Source: Leptotrichia wadei (GTDB lineage: Bacteria > Fusobacteriota > Fusobacteriia > Fusobacteriales > Leptotrichiaceae). Taken from it: DNA of 64,000 nucleotides. Each line of letters begins with the position of its first letter. Position 1 is the stretch's first letter. Made by a program: the position numbers and the translations under genes. Below are positions 53,943 through 56,396 of the stretch, in pieces. Where the stretch lies: NCBI RefSeq assembly GCF_007990445.1, contig NZ_AP019841.1, forward strand, positions 1,860,001 to 1,924,000, read 5' to 3'. The notes beneath the pieces were generated by a model. The model searched no databases, was not told the origin of the DNA, and saw only the letters and a program-made list of their open reading frames with translations.

Positions 53943-56396
53943 TTAAAATTGTTGACGATAGGAAGCACCACCGTATCTTAGTGTTGCCACATTTCTGTCT
54001 CCATTTTTGCTCCAAGATATTGGTATATCTATTGTTCCTTTATTTACATTTACTCTAACTGATGAAGGCAGATTTTCTCCATCTTCTGGAACATAAATAT
54101 TGCTTGCCGCCCTTACCAGCATTTCATGGGCTGATTCTGTCGGAACACTTACACTAAAGGTTTTTTCCGCTGTATTTGATCCAGCTGTTGCTGTTGCAGT
54201 TAATGTTGCCCCTTTACTTCCACCACCATAAAATTGCTTATTGACTCTTCCTGACACTGAATATAAGCTTGAATTTGAAGAATGCCATCTTATTGTAACT
54301 GGAACGCCATTTGAGGCAGTCATTGATTTCGGAAGGCGACCTCCTTCAGAAACTGACAGCTTGCCTATCACTTCTTGAACCGCTTCAGAATTTCTAGGAT
54401 CCGATCTTCCTGGAATTTCATTGCTATTACCGTTAATGCTATTATTACCATCATTATTCTGAACTTCATATCGCATTTGGATATTTCCTTCATTTTCAAG
54501 AATTTTTTTATCCATATCGTATATTGCATTTTTAGATGAAATCTGATTTTTACCTTGATAAGTTACTACATTTCCATTTAATTTTATCTTTTTGTCCTTC
54601 AGATAAATTGTAGCCTTATCAGCACTTGTATTAATTGTCTTAAATTGCGGCAATGTACTTACGATCTTTACATTATTTCTAGCATATCCTTCCTGCTTAT
54701 TCATATCCATATACAAATAATTTGCAGTCATTTTAGTATTATTCTTAAAGTCAACCATAACTTTATCTCTTGCAAGTATGAGGTTTCTTCTTGAATCCAT
54801 TTCATTATATTGGGAATCCAAAGTAATATCTTTATATGTCATACGTACATTTTCCTTAATTTCACTACGTGTAATACTCATATTACTTCCATTTTTATGG
54901 GAAACAAAATAAACTTTTGCAGTATTTCCGACAAAATGTACTGCTTCTGATTCCACAAGCGGTCTTGGATCATGTATCAAATCCTTTACATTACCTCTAA
55001 TTTTTCCTTTTACATGTCCATCAAACCTAAATTCCTTTCTCTCAAAACTTCCCTGTCCAACATCAGATGAAATTTTGTCCCCTTGAACACTTGTCATTTC
55101 CATTTTATTTGCAAAAATATCTTTTGAAATTGTATTCATTTTTCCGTTTGCACCATGAACATTAAAATTTTGTTTCTTTACATTAAAAGGTCCATTCATA
55201 GTAGCATTTCCTGTAGGAAAAACATACACAAGCCCTGTTCCATCCATTTTATAATCATCATAATTAGCAGTATAATAATCACTTGTAGTCATAGTGTGCG
55301 TTTTCAAATCATAAACTCCACTTCTATAAGTTCCTGTCGTTCTTCTCGGCAAGTAATTATAAGTACCATTTCCATCACCAGTTATTATATTGGCAACTTT
55401 ATCATAAAAAACATGATCTCCTGTAATTATCATCGTTTTTCCCGTATATCTAACATGTCCTCTTCCATCAACTTGTTTCTTGTCAACAAGATAAACAGCG
55501 CTGTCTCCTGTAATTACACTTTCCTTGCTCTTATAAACAACATGTCCATTTCCATTAATTTGTTTTTTCTTGATGAAATATACGGCACTGTCTGCTGTAA
55601 TTACACTTTCTTTCCCTGTATAAACAACATTTCCAAAACCTTCTACTCTTTCATCATCACCATTCATATAATAATCCGCCTTTTGAGCATCCAGCTTGCT
55701 TTCAGGAGAAGTGTAATGTACATGACCTTCTGCATTTCCTATTTTATTAATGTCATCATATCGCATCTTATCTGCTGTAAGCATTCTTTTAGTTTTTTCT
55801 TCCTTATAGACAACATGACCTTCTGCAAAACTTACCTTTGTCGGATCATTATACGTAATCTTATCTGCTGTCATAGTTTTTTTGTCTTTTTTATTATTAT
55901 ATTTTGCATGCCCTGTCGCTACAATCGTTTCAAACTTCGTTGTCGTTTCAACTTTATCCGCTTCAGAAAAAGTATCGTCAAAGGTATTTACCAGTTTTGT
56001 TTTTACTGGTGAAATTAGCTGATCTCCCTGCTTTTTATAATCTACCCGTTCTGTATAAATTTCCCACTTTCTGTCCTTTGTTGTACCAACAACTTTTTTC
56101 ATCAATGAAACATCAAGTGTCTTGGTATTTACAATCCCTTCTTTCCCGGAAATTACCATCTGTTTTTTTACAAGATCCACGATTACATTTTTAAACCTGA
56201 TGACTTCATCTCCTTCAGATCCAATTTGCTCATCAGCATAAACAATCGCTTCATCCCTTAACCTGTACACAACCTTTTTAGCCTTCATATCCTTTTGCAT
56301 CTGATCAAGCGGTGCCGGAATTTTTTTAAAGAATACCGCATATATAAAATATATCAGTATTAATATAAGCCCTCCATAACCTATTTTCTTCCACAT
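53943..56396 (-). CDS. Membrane-anchored LptC/LptA(OstA)-like protein with C-terminal Ig-like domains
   Basis: An 817-residue protein. Residues ~5-24 form a membrane anchor (IGYGGLILILIYFIYAVFF), followed by an LptC-like segment. Then come ~20 OstA/LptA-type beta units of 22-30 residues, with recurring Kxx(A/G)DxAxYxxxxxxxxGxGHVxYxxKxxxITGDSAVYL patterns up to ~residue 650. A spacer (NNDGNNSINGNSNEIPGRSD) leads to an Ig-like module (~675-757, IRWHSSNSSLYSV...KTFSVSV) and a second partial one (IPISWSKNGD). Lpt beta-jellyrolls form the periplasmic bridge for LPS; LptA and LptC are normally ~180-200 residues each. It may be a one-piece bridge. It begins 16 bp behind mutS with AGGAG. Confidence 0.75.
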   Translation of the reverse strand: MWKKIGYGGLILILIYFIYAVFFKKIPAPLDQMQKDMKAKKVVYRLRDEAIVYADEQIGSEGDEVIRFKNVIVDLVKKQMVISGKEGIVNTKTLDVSLMKKVVGTTKDRKWEIYTERVDYKKQGDQLISPVKTKLVNTFDDTFSEADKVETTTKFETIVATGHAKYNNKKDKKTMTADKITYNDPTKVSFAEGHVVYKEEKTKRMLTADKMRYDDINKIGNAEGHVHYTSPESKLDAQKADYYMNGDDERVEGFGNVVYTGKESVITADSAVYFIKKKQINGNGHVVYKSKESVITGDSAVYLVDKKQVDGRGHVRYTGKTMIITGDHVFYDKVANIITGDGNGTYNYLPRRTTGTYRSGVYDLKTHTMTTSDYYTANYDDYKMDGTGLVYVFPTGNATMNGPFNVKKQNFNVHGANGKMNTISKDIFANKMEMTSVQGDKISSDVGQGSFERKEFRFDGHVKGKIRGNVKDLIHDPRPLVESEAVHFVGNTAKVYFVSHKNGSNMSITRSEIKENVRMTYKDITLDSQYNEMDSRRNLILARDKVMVDFKNNTKMTANYLYMDMNKQEGYARNNVKIVSTLPQFKTINTSADKATIYLKDKKIKLNGNVVTYQGKNQISSKNAIYDMDKKILENEGNIQMRYEVQNNDGNNSINGNSNEIPGRSDPRNSEAVQEVIGKLSVSEGGRLPKSMTASNGVPVTIRWHSSNSSLYSVSGRVNKQFYGGGSKGATLTATATAGSNTAEKTFSVSVPTESAHEMLVRAASNIYVPEDGENLPSSVRVNVNKGTIDIPISWSKNGDRNVATLRYGGASYRQQF

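Follow-up and report, generated by a model that had tools for sequence, protein, structure and literature searches.

Does a single gene in Leptotrichia wadei encode the entire periplasmic bridge of Lpt, the lipopolysaccharide (LPS) exporter? The question is raised by a stretch of 64,000 nucleotides from this 2.40 Mb genome, hereafter the window, which carries on the minus strand, at positions 53943-56396, an open reading frame (ORF) for a protein of 817 residues plus stop, identified by ORF translation, Pfam and NCBIfam. A first-pass annotation of this DNA described the product as a one-piece LptC/LptA-like bridge; it gave the coordinates exactly and left out the strand. Its description is supported by sequence profiles, the predicted fold, adjacency to lptB throughout the phylum, co-occurrence with LptFG, an LptD-like protein and LpxC, and the failure to detect separate lptC or lptA genes. 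From this sequence and model evidence we put the probability at about 0.85 that the protein forms the complete periplasmic Lpt bridge, with LptC and LptA fused in one chain.

Sequence profiles of the bridge protein

Searches with the LptC, OstA and Ig-like families, which the first-pass annotation had proposed, gave matches above the Pfam cut-offs for all of them: LptD_N (PF03968, 42.9 bits, two stretches), LptC (PF06835, 41.2 bits against a cut-off of 21, two stretches), OstA_2 (32.9 bits) and the atrophied Ig domain aBig_2 (38.9 bits, residues 700-752). The NCBIfam equivalog model for LptC, TIGR04409, reaches 62.7 bits (cut-off 38), and an automatic pipeline would therefore probably label the protein LptC. 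The corresponding LptA model, TIGR03002, gives 37.6 bits and stays below its cut-off of 71.7, which means that a full-length match is lacking; one relative (L053) passes it with 92.3 bits. Both LptC and LptD_N are matched by 43 of 43 aligned homologues, and OstA_2 (PF13100) by 36 of them. Compared with solved structures, the phylum profile of the bridge finds LptA at 1.6e-9 and LptC weakly at 0.02. On sequence grounds this profile is specific to Lpt bridge proteins, unlike the fold match alone. A search with the single protein led to two named Leptotrichia records (best segment 79% identity).

Hydropathy reveals one hydrophobic segment per protein, always N-terminal, in all 43 homologues. In the window's protein it is the sole such segment and coincides with a helix predicted by AlphaFold2 at residues 2-22 (56331-56393, minus strand), in line with the membrane anchor claimed earlier and with a single inner-membrane helix as predicted topology. 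Most of the homologues are devoid of cysteine. The best LptC match within the 817 residues is internal (231-337); the LptC-like start is supported mainly through relatives, whose N-termini LptC profiles match.

Predicted structure and modelled length

An AlphaFold2 model of the protein, run with an alignment of 43 sequences, has a mean predicted local distance difference test score (pLDDT) of 86.5 and a predicted template modelling score of 0.61. It consists of the helix, uninterrupted strands from residue 39 to 643, a disordered linker and an Ig-like tail. The ribbon counts 39 rungs of about 15.5 residues, where strand halves parted by a short bulge are joined; this equals about 20 two-rung units and agrees with the roughly 20 OstA-type units reported before. 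An 894-aa relative from Fusobacteriaceae is modelled (pLDDT 88.6) as one unbroken ribbon of 57 rungs at residues 36-892, without Ig tail. Neither ribbon shows a domain boundary between "LptC" and "LptA" parts. A continuous beta-jellyroll, the prediction of the first-pass annotation, is thus what the models contain.

Foldseek lists LptD as best match in the PDB, followed by LptA (2r1a, TM-score to target about 0.8, root-mean-square deviation from 1.7 A) and LptC (3my2, about 0.8). ApoB, teneurin and other long beta proteins are also among the matches; the fold match by itself is therefore not specific. Beta-strands are usually spaced by 0.48 nm. At 0.48 nm per rung the ribbons, if straight, would measure about 18 nm in the 817-aa protein and about 27 nm in the 894-aa relative. 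About 18 nm is close to typical periplasm widths, and it is plausible from the model that one chain of this protein is long enough to span the periplasm without oligomerisation, as suggested previously.

Following the anchor, the chain can be divided into five parts, all on the minus strand. The LptC-like ribbon part (residues 39-162, 55911-56282) comprises the first strands; it corresponds to profile positions 1-193, which are kept in all lineages, and LptC profiles match it in relatives. The variable block (163-337, 55386-55910) contains six OstA-type units of 29-31 residues. Its 29/31-residue periodicity was equalled by none of 2000 shuffles, and the DNA of the gene shows an 87-bp tandem repeat. 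The conserved C-terminal ribbon part (338-643, 54468-55385; profile positions 475-895), presumably the end which faces LptD, includes an LptD_N match near 1914504-1914818 of the contig (G000:C1). The linker covers residues 644-666 (54399-54467), with pLDDT below 50 at 646-665. The tail (667-817, 53946-54398) is found by Pfam and present in 17 of 43 homologues. As to the C-terminal Ig-like modules named in the first-pass annotation, one domain (aBig_2) holds, whereas the second (775-798) is only a weak match.

Gene order

The bridge gene starts with ATG, is preceded by an AGGAG ribosome site and lies 16 nt from the upstream mutS (56413-59085, minus strand), which was recognised by its Pfam MutS domains and by synteny and is the conserved upstream neighbour phylum-wide. 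In Leptotrichiaceae and Fusobacteriaceae, and in four other families where contigs permit, the order reads mutS - bridge - lptB - (pepE) - alaS - ruvX - secD - secF - alr - cvpA - lptF - lptG, apart from local insertions. E. coli and Borrelia have lptC-lptA in front of lptB (PMC10353723). The bridge occupies this lptC-lptA position ahead of lptB. The lineage of the window has an operon break immediately behind the bridge gene, with lptB-pepE-alaS...lptF-lptG about 100 kb away (C1:1804-1815 kb). The mutS-bridge-lptB order is ancestral, and the break is derived. The earlier statement that the gene is linked to mutS and not to lptB holds for this genome; it does not describe an alternative to lptB linkage, since mutS is one half of the common arrangement, which is interrupted here after the bridge. 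For the same reason we rejected mutS linkage as a mark of a different function.

Directly after the bridge, at the operon break, an ORF of the haemolysin-III family overlaps a helix-turn-helix transposase-like ORF (window positions 52376-53682). Elsewhere in the window, a 121-aa ORF (62429-62794), located next to genes for glycosyltransferase and CDP-glycerol transferase, matches the conserved region of alpha-1,4-glycosyltransferases (Gb3_synth, 24.3 bits); judged by this match, it is possibly a surface-glycan gene or a remnant of one.

Distribution in Fusobacteriota

We surveyed 98 Fusobacteriota genomes. LptF/LptG are present in 89, and the searches with P0001, LptD_N, LptC and A3 together gave a bridge ORF in every one of these 89, each genome being matched by one or more of them. 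The other nine lack LptFG and also the bridge, an LptD-like protein and LpxC. All nine are Leptotrichiaceae (G065, G082, G083 and G091-G096; genera g2, g7, g10 and g11), which suggests a wholesale loss of LPS together with its exporter in these genomes. The genome of the window carries genes for LptB, LptF, LptG, LpxC and an LptD-like protein. The latter, of 1227 aa, is encoded at C1:2086590-2090270; its profile matches solved LptD at 3.4e-5, and it is the likely outer-membrane partner of the bridge. In one genome lpxC is present as two overlapping frames with an internal TGA (G078:C1:1022804-1023624), which is either a pseudogene or a sequencing error.

Separate canonical lptC and lptA genes in the same genome would have contradicted the one-piece description. 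Apart from short frames resembling contig ends, no separate gene of LptC or LptA size was seen among the matches listed across the genomes. In the window's own genome, searches with profiles for LptC, LptD_N and the bridge detected no separate lptC or lptA; they matched the bridge, the 1227-aa LptD-like ORF and, weakly, one further place. This last match (G000:C1:476273) was rejected, since it falls on the membrane segment at the N-terminus of an unrelated protein of 341 aa.

Its unusual length alone might suggest that the ORF is a misreading or an assembly artefact which fuses separate genes. We consider this practically negligible: a single long bridge ORF is present at about 60 loci from six families, and the predicted ribbon is continuous without domain boundary. 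An apparent split bridge in G046 was rejected as well, its halves being two contig ends; the short frames of G052 and G061, which were inspected in part, are probably contig ends too. Additional copies occur in one genome (G097), where a second copy with a broken frame follows the bridge in tandem, ahead of lptB (L065:11400-13645), and a third bridge gene adjoins an LptD-like gene (L138:265-6465). The same genome has at least two further LptD-like ORFs.

Variation in bridge length

Over the phylum the protein varies between 430 and 1093 aa. Measured against the phylum profile, the core comprises 870-907 aa in most lineages, outgroup families included. Leptotrichiaceae bridges retain profile positions 1-195 and resume from position 398-525 through to the end. 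Core lengths in this family are about 553, 613-616, 647 or 675-680 aa and differ by steps of 29-31-aa units; from anchor to anchor the repeat block has 91-93, 151-153, 184-185 or 212-217 residues, corresponding to 3, 5, 6 and 7 units. In a tree built from the parts outside the repeats, groups with differing counts interleave, so unit number has changed several times. Five genomes are missing from this tree, and the automatic count did not work for G087 and was wrong for G088. The Ig tail is found in Leptotrichiaceae and in g18. As g18 combines the tail with a full-length core, the tail is not simply a substitute for the lost middle.

Much shorter bridges exist in two genera: 430 aa in G049 (L123:2737-4029), 468 aa in G035 (L143:1312-2718) and, by profile, also in G032 (G032:C1:15160-16563). 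They stand in intact mutS-bridge-lptB context and keep both ends, and about 440-465 middle positions are gone; congeners have 870-907 aa. Because of these relatives, a span without oligomerisation is doubtful as a general rule. They also speak for another explanation, according to which the protein is an enlarged LptC and one chain does not span alone: LPS would be passed on to an unrecognised, separate LptA or along an end-to-end stack of further copies of the protein. E. coli LptA indeed oligomerises head to tail (PMC7237710). Nevertheless, this explanation is unlikely, given that the bridge-profile search of the three short-bridge genomes, like the searches of the window's genome, found no separate LptA- or LptC-like gene, and that most members have the 870-907-aa core modelled at about 27 nm.

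Assessment and proposed mechanism

Several observations weigh against a fused LPS bridge. The losses of the exporter are clustered in one family and therefore represent few events rather than nine. LpxC was not found in two genomes which keep the bridge, G001 (0.8 Mb) and G068 (88% complete). The profiles could also overlook a separate LptA if it were strongly diverged. Finally, the modelled length of the 430-468-aa bridges in intact operons, only about 12-14 nm, seems short if one chain is to make the span. G001 retains LptFG, lptB, the bridge and an LptD-like ORF (L063, L064), and Lpt transport without lipid A is possible in this genome.

G001 also lends some support to the idea that the bridge carries another amphiphile, a phospholipid or a non-LPS glycolipid, in the manner of TamB, AsmA or YhdP. 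Borrelia lacks LPS but possesses an Lpt system (PMC10353723), and ApoB and similar proteins are among the fold matches. However, the profile matches and the sequence matches in the PDB are specific to LptA, LptC and LptD, lptB is the neighbour, and the bridge co-occurs with LptFG and LpxC, the latter being present in the window's own genome. We regard a different cargo as very improbable.

Under the favoured reading, a fused LptC-LptA bridge, LPS drawn out by LptB2FG would enter the N-terminal LptC-like end and slide through a single continuous groove towards the ribbon's C-terminus. There, the conserved ribbon end would stack onto the N-terminal ribbon of the LptD-like protein of about 1227 aa. 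The middle of the ribbon may act as a spacer, lengthened or shortened during evolution by the two-rung units of 29-31 aa. On its flexible linker, the Ig-like tail would hang past the ribbon; that it tethers the bridge to LptD or to the cell wall peptidoglycan is a guess. With the LptC-LptA and LptA-LptA joints covalent, the gene would set the length of the bridge. We tentatively extend this to the whole diderm phylum, which would possess a single covalent LPS bridge without LptA, its length given by the number of two-rung units between conserved docking ends; such a bridge might be an evolvable molecular ruler that tracks periplasm width (modelled about 12-27 nm).

Comparison with known systems

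The number of LptA molecules per E. coli bridge is stated as unknown (PMC7237710, PMC10094684). A phylum with a one-chain bridge would fix this number at one, and bridge length could be read from sequence and compared with periplasm width. Thanatin acts at LptC-LptA and LptA-LptA contacts, and the bridge is an antibiotic target (PMC7237710). A fused bridge would be without these contacts, from which we infer a consequence for thanatin-like compounds in Fusobacteriota. One large analysis omitted Fusobacteria from its main tree (PMC8871954). Full-text searches of open-access papers, which did not extend to subscription journals or preprints, turned up no account of a one-chain bridge, nor of how the Lpt system is built in Fusobacteriota. 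The proposed fused bridge would be a new form of a known exporter, undescribed in the open-access papers searched.

With LptC (PF06835/TIGR04409, E. coli YrbK type) the protein shares the N-terminal anchor, the LptC-type ribbon and a score above the model cut-off, and in the ancestral order, lost in this genome by the operon break, the position directly upstream in the lptB operon. LptC has about 190 aa (canonical 180-200) as compared to 817 aa here; the bridge ribbon extends about four times further and is followed by an Ig-like tail. With LptA (PF03968/TIGR03002, E. coli YhbN type) it shares OstA repeats and the predicted ribbon fold (TM about 0.8 to 2r1a), and LptA is the best match among solved structures by sequence. 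LptA, however, is a separate soluble protein of about 160 aa, whereas the bridge is continuous with its LptC-like start and has a predicted anchor instead of a cleavable signal. The OstA_2 family profile (PF13100) matches most bridges; we know of no LptC-anchor fusion in this family. In Negativicutes and Halanaerobiales (PMC5007114) and in Borrelia (PMC10353723), Lpt genes cluster with lptB as they do here, but LptC and LptA are two separate proteins, in Firmicutes of about 200 aa each (PMC5007114), in place of one chain. The protein is best filed as a fused Lpt-bridge variant and not as LptC or LptA, because it departs from the size and the separateness that define each of them, even though profile and fold match both.
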